A stretch of 42,102 nucleotides of DNA from a virus, in the IMG/VR virus record IMGVR_UViG_3300036790_000204, positions 1 to 42,102 of that record; one strand, 5' to 3'. A program made the translations under genes and the position numbers. A model generated the notes under the pieces. It searched no databases, was not told the DNA's origin, and worked only from the letters and a program-made list of their open reading frames with translations. Every line of letters starts with the position of its first letter. The first letter of the stretch is position 1. Shown here in pieces: positions 16,620 to 27,501 of the stretch.

Positions 16620-16688
16620 CCTGCGTCACCCCATGCTGCGTTTCGTTTCCCGTGAGTGGGAGGAAGATTAGGCGACGTCAGAGGGGGG

Positions 16689-16781
16689 ATGGTTTCCGTG
16701 CGGAAACCATCCGGAAAGAGAGCTTTCCGTGATTGCCTCACGGGAGGGGTTTCCCGAAGGAAACGGTTTCCGCGCGGAAAC
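16689..16781. repeat. Array of four GTTTCC/GGAAAC palindromes
   Basis: Four inverted repeats with a common TTTCC core occur in 93 bases: ATGGTTTCCG-TG-CGGAAACCAT arms at 16689-16698/16701-16710; CGGAAAG-AGAG-CTTTCCG at 16712-16729; GTTTCC-CGAA-GGAAAC at 16749-16764; GTTTCCG-CG-CGGAAAC at 16766-16781, touching the stop of the XRE-TPR gene. They lie between that regulator's end and the promoter region of 16619-15934. Multiple operator sites for a dimeric regulator fit best; a multi-hairpin terminator of the XRE-TPR transcript is an alternative. Confidence 0.6.
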
Positions 16782-17968
16782 TAGATGACGCCCATGCGCC
16801 ACGCAAGGCCGCGAAGATCATTCCCCGGCGCCTGGTCAATCATGAACGCCACAAGATCCCGGATCAACGGCGAATTCCGCACCTGATCAGGGGAAAGCCG
16901 CTCAGCCGTCTTCAGCGCCCGCACGGCGTCCGAGTGCCTGCCGAGCATCGCATGCGCCCGGGCCGACTCGATCCGCAGCGCAGCCCGACGGTTGTTGCTC
17001 GCCAGCGCGCGCGGGTCGACCTTGTCGGCGTGCGCGAGCGCCTGCCCGGCGTTTCCGGCCTCCACCGCCAGCGACGCCAGCCACACCCGCGCGTTGGACG
17101 GCCCGGCAAGCTCCCACGCGTCGGCCCGGTCCTCCATCCGCGACGCGAGCCGCATCGCCTCGGCCCCCTGGTCGGCGGCCCCGTCATGGTCGCCCTGCAC
17201 CGCCCGCGCCAGAGCCGCCGATAGCCGCAGCATGACCAGCACCTCGAGCGCCATGCCCCCCTGCCCGGCGTGGGCGTCCATCCGATCGGCCGCCTGCGGC
17301 GTCGTCATCAGCGCCCGCGGCCGGTTCGCCGAGCTGCGCGCATGCGCTGCCCCGAACGCCGCCGCGCCCTCCCACACCGGGTCGCCGAGCAGCGCCGCGG
17401 CCTGCCTGCCCCGCTCGGCGGCCACCCACGCGAGATCAGGCTGGTTGGCGTACCGGAGGGTGATCACGGCGTTCGCCGTGGCCGGCACCAGCAGCCGCAG
17501 CGCCTCGTCCCGGCTCGACCCGCCGGACGCCGCGTGGACCTCGAGCTCGCCGATCAGGGTGGGCAGCAGAGGCAGCAGTGCATCCCAGTCCGAGACGCGC
17601 AGCGCGGCGTCGGCCTGGTCGTTCAGCTCCGCCAGCACGGCCACCGGGCGTGCGCCCATGTCCGGCGGGTCATCGGGCGCGGAGTCGAGCAGCGCCGACC
17701 GCAGCGGGTTCAGGTTCAGGGAACGGCGGCCGGCCTGAACTTCCGGAGCGGGCTCGCCGAGCAGCGCGTCGGCGGACACCTCGAGCGCGTCGGCCAGCGC
17801 CCCGATGTCGCTGCGCTTGTCCAGCGGCAGCCGGCCGTTCTCGATCTTGGACAGCCACCCCTTGGTGCGCCCGACGCGGCCCGCAGCTATCTCGAGGGAG
17901 AGCCCTTTCGCGCGCCTCGCTCTGCGCACTGCCATCCCTATGCGGCCGCGATCGCTGTTAGACTCCAC
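16781..17968 (-). CDS. XRE-family regulator with C-terminal TPR-like domain
   Basis: A 395-residue protein. Residues ~9-62 form an XRE HTH (MAVRRARRAKGLSLEIAAGR, GRTKGWLSKIENGRLPLDKR). Residues ~110-395 are a chain of Ala-rich helix pairs (DLAWVAAERGRQAAALLGDP; ADAWELAGPSNARVWLASLA; VEAGNAGQALAHADKV) that look like TPR repeats. This layout is common in actinobacterial regulators in which TPRs bind a peptide or small ligand. The start lies next to a 13-bp inverted repeat (17969-18030), probably its autoregulatory operator. The target genes are not identifiable from sequence. Confidence 0.8.
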   Translation of the reverse strand: MESNSDRGRIGMAVRRARRAKGLSLEIAAGRVGRTKGWLSKIENGRLPLDKRSDIGALADALEVSADALLGEPAPEVQAGRRSLNLNPLRSALLDSAPDDPPDMGARPVAVLAELNDQADAALRVSDWDALLPLLPTLIGELEVHAASGGSSRDEALRLLVPATANAVITLRYANQPDLAWVAAERGRQAAALLGDPVWEGAAAFGAAHARSSANRPRALMTTPQAADRMDAHAGQGGMALEVLVMLRLSAALARAVQGDHDGAADQGAEAMRLASRMEDRADAWELAGPSNARVWLASLAVEAGNAGQALAHADKVDPRALASNNRRAALRIESARAHAMLGRHSDAVRALKTAERLSPDQVRNSPLIRDLVAFMIDQAPGNDLRGLAWRMGVI

Positions 17969-21958: not shown

Positions 21959-22077
21959 TCACCCTCGACCTGCGCCCCGCGCGCGATGACCAGCCGGACG
22001 GCCCCCCGCGCGACGGGTGCATCCTCTGCGCCGCCGTTGCCGGCCCTGGCTGCCCGTACCACGGGAGCGCCCGATGA
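21955..22077 (+). CDS. 40-residue cysteine-containing peptide
   Basis: GTG 21955 (GTGA overlap) to TGA 22077 encodes a peptide with CILCAAVAGPGCPYH, a C-x2-C-x7-C-x2-H arrangement that could bind zinc. Its end overlaps the WhiB start (ATGA). Both couplings support translation. Confidence 0.5.
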   Translation: MITLDLRPARDDQPDGPPRDGCILCAAVAGPGCPYHGSAR

Positions 22078-22358
22078 TCGCCGCCGTATCCGACATCCGC
22101 AACTGGCAGGCGCGCGGCCTCTGCTCCAAGCTCCCCGCCGCCGACCGGGTGTTCTTCGGGGCTGACGGCGAGTCGCCCGAGGATCAGGCAGCGCGGGAGG
22201 CGCAGGCCGTGCAGGTCTGCGACCGCTGTCCCGTGCAACTGCGCTGCGCCCTCTGGGCTCTCCGCACCGGCGCCGACTTCGGCGTCTACGGCGGCCTCAC
22301 CGAGAAAGAGCGCGCCGACATGAAGCGCGACGGAACCCGCAAGGAGGCTGCCGCATGA
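22074..22358 (+). CDS. WhiB-like iron-sulfur transcription factor
   Basis: A 94-residue protein with all Wbl features: Cys17, Cys49, Cys52 and Cys58 (C...C-x2-C-x5-C) to hold a 4Fe-4S cluster, a GVYGG turn (residues 70-74, G[VI]WGG in the family) and a basic C-terminus ([14 protein letters not shown]). Wbl proteins bind the primary sigma factor and alter promoter choice, and respond to redox or NO. Actinophage and plasmid Wbls are known to tune host or element transcription. ATG 22074 is chosen by the ATGA overlap. Confidence 0.9.
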
Positions 22359-22588
22359 GCGCCCGCCTGCTCGCCGTCGCCCTGATCGCGGCCGCGTTCC
22401 TGCTCGGGCCGCATTTCGTCGCGGCGCTCGCCCTGTTCGCGTTCGCCGCCGTGACGCTCCTGTTCGTCCACATGGCCGCCCTGCTCACGGTCCTGACCAT
22501 CGGGACCACGGTCGGGCTGCTCTTGCTCATCGCCGGATCACTTCGGCGATCCGGGTTCCTGCTCGTCTCCAGGAGGCTCGCATGGTAA
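22355..22588 (+). CDS. Small membrane protein
   Basis: A 77-residue, very hydrophobic protein with two helices ([20 protein letters not shown] and [20 protein letters not shown]). It starts in an ATGA overlap with WhiB and its last seven bases overlap the translocase start. Position right before the TraB-like gene recalls the small spread (Spd) membrane proteins of Streptomyces plasmids. Confidence 0.6.
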
Positions 22589-25026
22589 ACCGCGACCGGG
22601 GTCGCGACCACGACCGCGACCGCGACCACGAGAACGTCGTCCCGATCCGGCCGGAGGACGACGACGACCTGCAGGTCATCGCCCCGGCCGACGACGACGA
22701 CGAGAGCGGGCCCATTAAGCTCGGCGGGGCAATCGAGCCGGCGCCCAAGCCGGCGCGCGACGAGCAGGCCGACGTGCCGCGCCGCGCCGAGATCATCCCC
22801 GCAGCGTTCAGCCGCGCCCAGTGGAAGCAGACCCTTACGGATTGGGCGCACGAAACCGGGTTCCGCGTCGCATTCCACGGCGTTCGCATCCCTTTCAAGT
22901 ACGTGCCCGGCTCTCTCTTTTACACCGTCCGCGGGGGCACCCGCCTCGGCCGCAGCTGGGGCACGTGGGTGTCGGCGCCGACTCTGAAACTCGCCGAGTC
23001 CGCCGCTGTGGTTAAAGGCAACGCCGGCCACGCGCAGATCCTGCAGGCTCACACGGAGGGCCGCAGAACCCGCAAGATGCGCTGGCAGATCACCGGCGGC
23101 GTGGCGCTCGCGGCCGGCGTCGCGGCGGCGGCGATCGCCGGCTGGACCCCGTGGGAGGTGCAGGACACCCTCGCCGCCGGTGCAGCCGGCGTAGTCGCCT
23201 ACCACGGGCGCCCGGTCGACGGGCCGCTCATCCCGCGCGCGGTGCTGCCGCCCGCCTACCAGGTGCCGACACCGGAGCTGATCCAGAAGGCGCTCGGGAC
23301 GGCCATACCCGCCATCGGGAAATACCTCGAGAGGAAAGGCCCCCTCGACAGGAAGAACACTCTCGACTGGGTGTCCGACGTCCACCGCGACGGCCCCGGG
23401 TGGGCGGTCGAGCTCGACCTGCCCGAGGGCGTGACGGCAAAGCAGGTCATCGCCAAGCGCCCCGAGCTGTCGTCGCTGCTGCGCCGGCCGCTGTCGGCCG
23501 TGTGGCCCGAAGGCGTTCCCGGCGAGCACGAGGGGCGCCTGTACCTGTGGATCGGCCGCCACGACATGTCGAAGATGAAGGCGCCGCCGTACCCGTTCCT
23601 CAAGGGCGGCACGTTCGACTACTTCCAGCCGGGCCCGTTCGCTTTCACCCCCCGCGGCGTCCCGGTCCTCGAGAAGCTGTTCGGCAAGAACTGGCTGATC
23701 GGCGGGGCACCCGGCAACGGGAAGACATCCGCGGTGCGGGTGCTCGCGTGCAACGCCGCGCTCGACCCGACCTGCGAGATCTGGGTTCACGAGCTGCTCG
23801 GCAAGGGCGACCTTGACCCGTTCGGCCTGGTCGCCCACCGGTACTGCTCGGGACTCGACCGGGAGTCGCTCACCTACGCGGCGCAGTCGCTGGAACTGCT
23901 GGTCAAAGAAGTCGACCGGCGCACCGGCATCCTCAAGAAAATCCCGCTGGTCGAGCGCCCCGACGGGTCCATCACCCGGGAGATCGCCGCCAAGTACGGG
24001 CTTAACCCGCTGGCGGCGATCTTCGACGAGATCCACAACGTGTTCCTCGACGAGGAACTCGGCCCCAAGGCCAAAAAGCACATCAGTCACCTCATCAGGT
24101 CGGCCCGGGCACTCGGCATCACGATCATCGCCGCGACCCAGCGACCCGATAAAGACTCGATCCCGACCAACATGTCGGGCATCGTCACGACCCGGTTCTG
24201 CCTGAAGGTGCCGGACTGGCTGAGCAACGACATGATCCTCGGCACCGGCAGCAACAACGCCGGCTTCTCGTCGGTCGCGTTCAGGCAGGAGACCGACGCC
24301 GGCCTCGGCTGGCTCAAGGGCACCGCCGACCCGATGCCCGTCAAGACCTACAACCTCAAGCTCACCCACACCCACAAGATCTGCGTCCGCGCCCGCGCGC
24401 TGCGGGAAGCGGCCGGAACGCTGTCGGGGTACGCGCTCGGCGAGGACGACAGCACCAGGTCGCTGCTCGACGACACGCTCGGAGTGTTCGCCCCGGCCGA
24501 AGCCTTCCTGTACCGGGAGACGATCGCCACCCGCCTCGCGCAGCGCTATCCCGGCACCTACGCCGGCCTCACAGCCGACGCGCTGTCATCCGACGTGCGG
24601 GCGCTCACCGGCCGCGGCATGGACGACGGCCGCGAACCCGGCGGGAACACCCTCAAGGGCATCAAGCGCACCACGATTCAGGACGCGATCGACAATGGCC
24701 CGGCGACCGCCGAACCCCCGGACGAGCCGGCCGCCGACGACCAGACAGCACCCGAGTCGGCACCGGCGGACGACCCCGCTGCGATGGGCCCGCTCGAGCA
24801 GCTGCTCTACGCGGCCGAGCTGGTCATCATCCCGCAGCACGGCTCGACTCAGATGCTCGGCCGCAAAATGCGCGTCGACCGCGCCCGCGCCGGCGAGCTG
24901 ATGGACGAGCTCGAGCACTGCGGCGTCGTCGGACCCGATAAGGGAGCGAAGGCGCGCGAGGTGCGCAAAAAGCCGGCCGAGCTCAAGCAGGTTCTCGCCG
25001 AGATCCGGGAGACCGTCGATGCCTAG
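22582..25026 (+). CDS. FtsK/TraB-type DNA translocase
   Basis: An 814-residue protein. The N-terminus is charged (acidic DDDD runs). A membrane segment lies at ~168-190 ([17 protein letters not shown]). The motor domain has Walker [12 protein letters not shown] (~374), Walker [12 protein letters not shown] (~477) and the sensor-like [18 protein letters not shown] (~512). The C-terminus (~735-800) is an FtsK-gamma-type winged helix ([20 protein letters not shown], then [20 protein letters not shown]), which in TraB/FtsK reads 8-bp DNA signals. In Streptomyces, TraB alone moves double-stranded plasmid DNA between cells. The gene is in a WhiB/Spd/mIHF context, so conjugative transfer fits better than chromosome segregation. 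Confidence 0.9.
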
Positions 25027-25072: not shown

Positions 25073-25210
25073 CCGCAACAATCTGTTGCGCCAGCGCAAC
25101 ACGCGCTGACCTGCGAAAACACGAATCCGCGCAACAAACCGCGTCCTCGGCTAGGGGTGCGCAACACACTCCGCAACACGCTGACCTGCGGAAACACGGC
25201 CTGCGCAACA
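25073..25210. repeat. Cluster of 8-bp repeats, candidate clt/TRS locus
   Basis: Directly after the translocase stop, (C/G)CGCAACA occurs at 25073-25080, 25094-25101, 25129-25136, 25159-25166, 25171-25178 and 25203-25210 on the plus strand, plus one inverted copy at 25084-25091. A longer imperfect repeat, CGCAACACG(CG)CTGACCTGCG then (A/G)AAACACG, is at 25095-25123 and 25172-25198. In Streptomyces plasmids, TraB's winged helix binds clustered 8-bp repeats in the clt locus near traB. Position, unit length and partner domain all fit. An iteron-type replication origin is the main alternative. Confidence 0.6.
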
Positions 25211-25283
25211 ATCCGGCTCGACGGGGCCCCGATCAGGGCCGAAACCCGCGCCCTAGGGCCATGCACCGGAAGAGGGGGGCTTT

Positions 25284-26507
25284 TTGAAGGCGCGGCTAAC
25301 GCTGTGGCACTGCGGGCGCTGCGGGAAGGCACGCGGACGGCACCACCTGTGCTCGGGCGGCCGGAAGGGACGCGACCGGATCAAGCTCCGGATGGCGTTC
25401 ACCTGCCCGTCATGCGGCGCGAGCACGCCCAACCCGCTGACGCACCGCTGCGTCAAAAAGTCGGACTTCAAGCGCCGGAAAGCCGCAGCGAAGCGGCACG
25501 ACCAGGCCGAGGCCCGGAAGCGGAGACGGCGCGCGGCGGCCGCCCGGAAACGGGCGCGGCTCAGAGAGCGGAAGCGCGCGCGGGCGGAGCGCCGCAGGCT
25601 GCAGCGCGCCGCCACGGCGGCCGCCCGGAAGCAGTCGGCGCGCGCCCGCTCCCACAACGCGAACAGGCACGAGCCGGCCGACTGCCGCGACGAGAACTGC
25701 ACAAGCAAACCCTGCGCCTGGTATCGCGCCGGGAGGACGGACGGCCTGGTGATCGGCCGGGCCGAGGGCTACGGCGACGGGTTCACCGACGGGTTCGCCG
25801 AGTGCCTGTCGCAACGTTTAGGGGGCTGCCATGGGCGACGTGATCCTGAAGGCGATCCCGGTGCTATTCGTCGTCGGCGTGCTCTACCTGGCGCTGCTGC
25901 TGATCCACCCGATGCACGAGTGCCCGCGGTGCGGCGGCGCGCGGGTGATCAGGAACGGCCGGAACGTCAAAGCCTGCAAGAAGTGCAAGGCGACCGGCCG
26001 CGCGATCCGGTTCGGCGCACCGTTCGCACACAAGCTCGCCCGCGAGCATGTGTGGCCGTGGATCCGCGCCCGCATGGAGGACACGGCCGAGCGCAGGCAG
26101 GAGGGGCCGCGATGACGCTTAAGGGCAGTTTCCAAGGGTCATTCCAGCTCAAGCAGGCACGCGCCCCGGTTCTGCGCCTGCTGCTGCCGGCGCTAGCCGC
26201 CGCGCTGGCCTGCTGGCTGGCCATGGCGCTCGCGTGGCTGCTCGCGGTCATCGTCGGCGCGTTCGGGCTGGCGATCGTCGGGGGCAGCCTGTGGCTGCGC
26301 CATTGGTCGCGCCGCGCCGAGGCCGGATTCGCGGCCAGTCAGCTCGCCAACCCCGTGCGACCCGCGATCACAGCTTCGGCGCAGCCCGCGCCGATGATCG
26401 TCAACCACTACCACGGGCCCGTCACCGTCCACGTGGGACCGGGGTCGGACCCATCGGCGTTCGGGGCGGTCCGGCCCCTCGCCATCACCACCGAAACAGA
26501 GGAGTAG
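25284..26507 (+). CDS. Arg-rich double zinc-finger protein, frame lacks its own stop
   Basis: TTG 25284 follows AGAGGGGGG. The first ~180 residues are convincing: HCGRCGKARGRHHLC and FTCPSCGAS...HRC zinc sites, a long Arg/Ala/Lys helix (residues ~55-120), then DCRDENCTSKPCAW and GYGDGFTDGFAECL. No stop follows in this frame, which reads on through the gene at 25831 as Arg/Pro-rich shadow and joins the membrane protein at 26112 in phase. A TAG in the +1 frame at 25819-25821, just before the next ribosome site, suggests the natural end was lost by an indel. Similar proteins accompany TraB in AICEs. Confidence 0.5.
   Translation: MKARLTLWHCGRCGKARGRHHLCSGGRKGRDRIKLRMAFTCPSCGASTPNPLTHRCVKKSDFKRRKAAAKRHDQAEARKRRRRAAAARKRARLRERKRARAERRRLQRAATAAARKQSARARSHNANRHEPADCRDENCTSKPCAWYRAGRTDGLVIGRAEGYGDGFTDGFAECLSQRLGGCHGRRDPEGDPGAIRRRRALPGAAADPPDARVPAVRRRAGDQERPERQSLQEVQGDRPRDPVRRTVRTQARPRACVAVDPRPHGGHGRAQAGGAAMTLKGSFQGSFQLKQARAPVLRLLLPALAAALACWLAMALAWLLAVIVGAFGLAIVGGSLWLRHWSRRAEAGFAASQLANPVRPAITASAQPAPMIVNHYHGPVTVHVGPGSDPSAFGAVRPLAITTETEE
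25831..26115 (+). CDS. Membrane-anchored zinc-ribbon protein
   Basis: A 94-residue protein. Residues ~7-27 (AIPVLFVVGVLYLALLLIHP) form a membrane helix, then CPRCGGAR...ACKKCKATGR makes a zinc ribbon like those of small proteins in Streptomyces AICE and plasmid transfer regions. The ribosome site is the AGGGGG just upstream. Ends in ATGA overlap with the next membrane protein. Confidence 0.65.
   Translation: MGDVILKAIPVLFVVGVLYLALLLIHPMHECPRCGGARVIRNGRNVKACKKCKATGRAIRFGAPFAHKLAREHVWPWIRARMEDTAERRQEGPR
26112..26507 (+). CDS. Membrane protein, spread-protein-like
   Basis: A 131-residue protein from ATG 26112 (ATGA overlap). Two adjacent helices (LLLPALAAALACWLAMALAW and LLAVIVGAFGLAIVGGSLWL) are followed by a basic patch and a His-rich beta segment (MIVNHYHGPVTVHVG). 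The layout recalls Spd proteins that help plasmids spread through mycelium after transfer. Assignment is by context, not by a family motif. The same frame is open upstream into 25284. Confidence 0.6.
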   Translation: MTLKGSFQGSFQLKQARAPVLRLLLPALAAALACWLAMALAWLLAVIVGAFGLAIVGGSLWLRHWSRRAEAGFAASQLANPVRPAITASAQPAPMIVNHYHGPVTVHVGPGSDPSAFGAVRPLAITTETEE

Positions 26508-26938: not shown

Positions 26939-27280
26939 ATGGGCTGGCTCATCGCGCTAGGCGTGCTCTACCTGCTGTTCCACGGCCCACCACTACAGGA
27001 GGCGTCGGCGTCGGGGCCTGTCTGTTTGGGCCAGTATCCCTGGGCCATTTGGAACAAGAATCTCAAAAAGGTTCTGATCGGTTCTGATCACCCAGCAGGG
27101 CGGCCAGCCTCCCCACTGGCCGCCCGACCGGGCAATCAGCACCAGGGGACAGCCCGACCCCCCCATCGAACAGGAGGAACACCATGCCACTACCCGATCT
27201 CACCCCCGAGCAGCGCGAGGCGGCACTCGCGAAGGCGGCCGCGACCCGAACCGCCCGCGCCGAGGTCAAGAACCGGCTGA
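26939..27280 (+). CDS. Short membrane peptide with uncertain C-terminus
   Basis: ATG 26939 follows AGGAAGGGAA. The first ~16 residues (MGWLIALGVLYLLFHG) are a credible membrane helix. The remainder is low-complexity, crosses an A/T-richer regulatory stretch and hairpin, and overlaps the mIHF gene in another frame, so it may be a truncated gene whose stop was lost. Confidence 0.35.
   Translation: MGWLIALGVLYLLFHGPPLQEASASGPVCLGQYPWAIWNKNLKKVLIGSDHPAGRPASPLAARPGNQHQGTARPPHRTGGTPCHYPISPPSSARRHSRRRPRPEPPAPRSRTG
27070..27125 (+). promoter_or_regulatory. Tandem 10-bp repeat and hairpin upstream of mIHF
   Basis: GGTTCTGATC is repeated in tandem at 27070-27079 and 27080-27089 within an A-rich stretch (AACAAGAATCTCAAAAAGG). 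It is followed by the perfect hairpin GGGCGGCCAG (27098-27107)/CTGGCCGCCC (27116-27125). The repeats could be operator half-sites and the hairpin a transcript-end or leader structure ahead of the mIHF gene. No T-run follows the hairpin. Confidence 0.4.
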
Positions 27281-27501
27281 AGACGGGCGACGTCACCCTG
27301 ATGTCCGTCATCGACGACGCCGACCCGCTGATCGTCGGGCGCATGAAGGTCACGGCGCTGCTGCAGGCGGTGCCCGGCATCGGCAAGGCGCGGGCCGCGC
27401 AGATCATGGCCCGCATCGGGATCGCCGAGACGCGCCGGGTCGCCGGCCTCGGGAAAGCCCAGCGCGCCGCCCTCGCCGCCGAGTTCGCGCCGGCGGCCTG
27501 A
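27184..27501 (+). CDS. mihF: Actinobacterial integration host factor (mIHF)
   Basis: A 105-residue protein, the usual mIHF length. The opening PLPDLTPEQREAALAKAAAT, AEVKNRLKTGD, then MKVTALLQAVPGIGKARAAQ with IMARIGI (helix-hairpin-helix, residues ~54-80) and RRVAGLGKAQRAALAAEF match the family end to end. mIHF bends DNA and supports recombination, nucleoid structure and, for phage L5, integration. An element-borne copy could serve site-specific recombination, transfer-DNA architecture or host takeover. AGGAGG precedes ATG 27184. Confidence 0.92.
   Translation: MPLPDLTPEQREAALAKAAATRTARAEVKNRLKTGDVTLMSVIDDADPLIVGRMKVTALLQAVPGIGKARAAQIMARIGIAETRRVAGLGKAQRAALAAEFAPAA

Follow-up and report, generated by a model that had tools for sequence, protein, structure and literature searches.

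The non-coding gap adjoining the gene for a TraB-type DNA translocase contains an array of seven (C/G)CGCAACA octamers (positions 25073–25210 of the window, by which we mean the whole 42,102-nt stretch analysed here, the first part of a 106,102-bp IMG/VR virus record), and we consider it about 80% probable that this array is a clt, a putative loading site for the phage's TraB with the octamers read by that protein's own C-terminal domain. The interpretation, which is made by analogy, is supported because relatives share the layout, because plasmid pSVH1 has it likewise with a known TRS, and because the repeat motif follows the C-terminal domain of TraB. TraB binding to the array and DNA transfer are what we infer, loading and transfer here being carried over from pSVH1 and pWTY27. 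A first-pass annotation had also arrived at a clt; its TraB-type array right behind traB with a new octamer stands, but its proposed reader, a winged helix at the very end of the protein, is not supported as described.

Motif positions confirm the seven octamers within 138 bases, six direct (starting at 25073, 25094, 25129, 25159, 25171 and 25203) and one inverted (25084), and those at 25073 and 25084 make up a perfect inverted pair, CGCAACA-atc-TGTTGCG (25074–25090). The 257-base gap was likewise described correctly, since the translocase gene stops at 25026 and a TTG at 25284, with a G-rich ribosome site ahead of it, is the next start that is plausible. In the window SCGCAACA occurs 14 times, a number never reached in dinucleotide shuffles (mean 4.18), and the whole 106,102-bp record holds 17 copies, seven in the array and ten elsewhere. 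Of all 7-mer clusters in the window, that of CGCAACA is the most significant (7 copies vs 0.02 expected per 200 nt). The second strongest cluster, also tight, lies at 1772–1897, inside or beside an ORF at 1346–2341, and consists of five GAACCCTT/AAGGGTTC copies within 64 bases plus copies of TTCGCGAA. Behind the last octamer lies CCCTAGGG (25251–25258), which the four closest clts have conserved at their far end. An Rfam search at the array gave no match.

Judged by its sequence, the 814-aa product of the gene (22582–25026, plus strand) is a TraB-family motor of the FtsK/SpoIIIE type. The Pfam FtsK_SpoIIIE match is slightly below the curated cut-off (21.7 bits, cut-off 24), the protein is 33–36% identical to plasmid and chromosomal TraB homologues, the alignment to TraB relatives is clear and the motor of FtsK is matched in the PDB. 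No viral relative came up when exact peptides of the translocase alone were scanned for; a profile search did find such relatives. Conservation in the TraB family marks the usual C-terminal domain, the proposed octamer reader, at about residues 636–706 (24487–24699, plus strand). Modelled alone, from an alignment from which both rows originating from an annotated record were left out, it adopts a beta-alpha-alpha-beta-beta-alpha arrangement that is winged-helix-like; known structures, winged helices included, match it weakly (Z of 5 or less), and no known fold could be assigned by a convincing structure match. Ordinary TraBs end in this domain. In the window's protein an FtsK-gamma domain sits behind it (residues 744–794; 24811–24963, plus strand; PF09397, E 5e-12), whose fold matches FtsK gamma structures with a best Z of 10.2. 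There is thus indeed a winged helix at the terminus, but it is this added domain and not the usual TraB one. Among the surveyed TraBs the gamma extension occurs only in the window and in loci L019, L020 and L167. An FtsK-gamma domain fused to a PIF1-like helicase was also seen on a phage contig from human faeces (L016, 1008–3098).

How general is the layout? The TraB loci obtained with the profile comprise 48 viral and 80 genomic ones, and nearly all have repeats of their own following the traB stop. Each segment was scored by its best 7-mer cluster in 300 nt, with a threshold of 7. Of 131 loci, 78.6% reached this score directly behind traB, compared to 2.1% of 8,655 control windows from the same loci, and a clear cluster is absent in about 10–20% of TraB loci. 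The layout is common to most of about 130 related elements and the repeat motif differs between loci: CGCAACA in the window, L020 and L167; CGCGACA in L019 and L044; CCGCTACC in L021, L023 and L036; CCGTTACC in L025 and L027; CTAG-type motifs in many integrative elements; and AGGGAGGC in a distant group. As a positive control, pSVH1 shows five GACCCGGA right behind its traB stop, and binding of its TraB to this TRS is established (Vogelmann 2011, Reuther 2006, as cited in PMC3583192).

The pSVH1 system resembles the window in its 8-mer array directly behind traB, its FtsK-like motor and a CTGACCTGCGNAAACACG core in the clt region; it differs in the octamer, in being a small plasmid rather than a phage and in a TraB that is about 30% identical, and no gamma domain was seen in the last 90 residues of pSVH1 TraB. 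In pWTY27 the clt also lies directly behind tra, and its 7-bp direct repeats have been shown to be bound by Tra and required for transfer (PMC3583192), but the repeats are TGACACC and CCCGCCC and the element is a theta plasmid. The clt of pJV1, another plasmid, has nine CCGCACA(C/G)(C/G) repeats as reported in PMC3583192, a cluster with a motif similar in appearance. AICE Tra modules share the TraB family and have, in our survey, CTAG-type arrays behind traB; they are integrative elements without virion genes, unlike the phage, and the part of PMC3218068 consulted does not describe clt arrays for them.

Which domain reads the octamer? Across 114 loci, similarity between motifs goes with sequence identity of the usual TraB C-terminal domain (Spearman 0.73); the partial correlation is 0.43 for the domain given the motor, as against 0.23 for the motor given the domain. 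A permutation test gave 0/500, which overstates the significance since the loci are related; for the same reason the correlation is a trend rather than a clean test. Covariation of the motif with the protein's own C-terminal domain fits TraB as its reader. Gamma domains load FtsK on 8-bp sites (KOPS), and a translocase ending in FtsK-gamma could in principle have its octamers read by this domain in a KOPS-like way. The window has the domain and the fold in common with the FtsK system, but here gamma is attached to TraB and is an unlikely reader of the array. L044 lacks gamma and yet has CGCGACA repeats, a motif nearly identical to that of gamma-bearing L019 (likewise CGCGACA) and to the CGCAACA of the window and of gamma-bearing L020 and L167. 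About a hundred TraBs without gamma have arrays, and no repeat cluster was found behind gamma-bearing phage proteins that are not TraBs, nor behind the FtsK-like proteins without a TraB domain of phages Gilgamesh, MagicMan and prophi_GD43-6. The usual TraB C-terminal domain thus appears the likely reader of the octamers, with gamma probably not reading them and being otherwise employed.

The array contains a second sequence element. The longer repeat noted earlier inside it is real, measuring 23 nt (25101–25123 and 25176–25198, 91% alike) and coming to about 27–29 when the neighbouring octamer is included; what had been missed is that it is a separate conserved element, CTGACCTGCGGAAACACG, outside the octamer system. 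Its core copies are CTGACCTGCGAAAACAC (25106–25122) and CTGACCTGCGGAAACAC (25181–25197), both on the plus strand and the only two in the 106-kb record. GACCTGCRNAAA is present in 29 of the 131 post-traB segments, across octamer classes, at 0.74 per kb compared to 0.014 elsewhere (54-fold), and the clt region of pSVH1 carries the copy CTGACCTGCGCAAACACG. The core also occurs outside clts: of 50 places at which viral contigs matched the 17-mer exactly, two adjoin TraB and many adjoin other clusters of repeats. In 15 actinobacterial genomes there are 17 copies of TGACCTGCGNAAACNCG vs 0 for the reversed pattern, and in a phylum-wide draw of 119 the numbers are 12 vs 2. Several chromosomal copies adjoin tRNA genes, mostly just behind them, and in mycobacteriophages Giles and Tweety the core lies in the last 150 bases at the right genome end, as an inverted pair in the former and a direct one in the latter. 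In one chromosomal locus (L209) the core TGACCTGCGGAAACACG sits between apparent CRISPR repeats (GTCCTCATCACCCCTACGAGGGATCGCAAC). A role as terminator was not upheld, since orientation to the neighbouring gene varies, and Rfam searches at core sites returned nothing but the neighbouring tRNAs. The element seems previously undescribed; a literature search with its letters matched only papers on unrelated subjects.

In other phages, similar repeats that have this core adjoin genes that are not traB, among them replication genes of the primase-polymerase type, so that an array with a core is by itself no proof of a clt. Could the octamers then be iterons of a replication origin, bound by the phage's replication initiator? 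The core-bearing clusters next to primase-polymerase-type genes in phages L172 and L193 speak for such an origin. We regard it as improbable, somewhat more so than reading by gamma, because most of about 130 elements, diverse in kind as they are, keep their arrays behind traB, because the repeat motif follows TraB, and because the recognised DNA-metabolism genes of the window (a Rad52-type annealing protein and an exonuclease) are on the left arm, at least 12 kb away. No initiator family was found among the neighbours of the array, namely traB, a zinc-ribbon-like ORF and small genes. Least probable of all is an operator cluster through which a regulator (WhiB-like, 22074–22358, or XRE, 16781–17968) controls traB or the genes behind it: the inverted pair is operator-like and the WhiB-like gene lies just upstream of traB, but six of the seven sites are direct and make no palindrome, the XRE gene is served by separate palindromes of its own (16691–16781), and family-wide the array is behind traB, not before it.

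The carrier, whose nature the first-pass annotation had missed, is a large temperate tailed phage, of actinobacteria by its genes. Genes for terminase, portal and a head-maturation protein are present in the record, along with an HK97-type capsid gene (a capsid family match). A 1,608-aa ORF is the tape measure by size and place; a PF10145 match was sought in it and none was found. Both a serine recombinase and a tyrosine integrase are recognised from the translations. An exact 127-bp repeat at both ends of the record indicates a complete circular or terminally redundant genome and, together with the capsid, portal, tape-measure-like gene and two recombinases, a complete phage. The portal family is matched by 16 of the 30 viral records that have TraB (14 above its cut-off), and the capsid family by 8 of 16 tested, including the record of the window. 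That the window and its closest TraB relatives are of one phage lineage was not upheld, as the window's terminase and portal found no partners in the relatives' records; the TraB module therefore probably moved between phages, and TraB with its clt looks like a module moving between phages, plasmids and integrative elements.

Several other features of the record were observed in passing. The gene at 22074–22358 belongs to the WhiB family. A small protein with an S13-like H2TH domain (PF22525) is encoded at 27184–27501 and is reminiscent of actinobacterial integration host factor, and operator-like palindromes GGTTTCCGTGCGGAAACC and relatives (16685–16781) adjoin the XRE-type regulator gene, which is on the minus strand. 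Outside the window, a protein at 54922–58770 of the record (L009) seems by eye to contain an intein (Cys start, VHNC-like end), and another at 101694–102587 (L012) resembles, also by eye, an SPFH/prohibitin-like membrane protein, encoded here by a phage.

In the mechanism that we propose, TraB's own C-terminal winged-helix-like domain would pick the (C/G)CGCAACA octamers, and with several octamers side by side, TraB hexamers would be loaded or oriented on no DNA but this. The prophage or the circular genome of the phage, as double-stranded DNA and perhaps with linked host DNA, could then be pumped into an adjacent cell or through the mycelium. For the added FtsK-gamma domain we propose an additional DNA contact with a different target, and the two CTGACCTGCG(G/A)AAACACG copies may represent a second cis element, probably serving something other than TraB. 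More tentatively, and with less confidence than an even chance would give, we suggest that a temperate tailed phage uses its own TraB and clt to pass from one hyphal cell to another as naked double-stranded DNA as well, this TraB having gained a second DNA-reading domain, and that the 17-bp CTGACCTGCG(N)AAACACG is a general actinobacterial signal that functions in clts whose specificities differ widely, and likewise next to tRNA genes and phage ends. TraB and clt are already known; new are the octamer, a complete tailed phage as carrier, the added gamma domain and the second element, which is also in a studied clt. If true, TraB/clt transfer, so far a matter of plasmids and AICEs, would extend to complete tailed phages. 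The more than 100 natural TraB–motif pairs are a data set for working out and testing the DNA-reading code of TraB, for which there is one lead: in five proteins of the window's clade, the position two residues before the conserved wing glycine is Leu in CGCAACA loci and Arg in CGCGACA loci.
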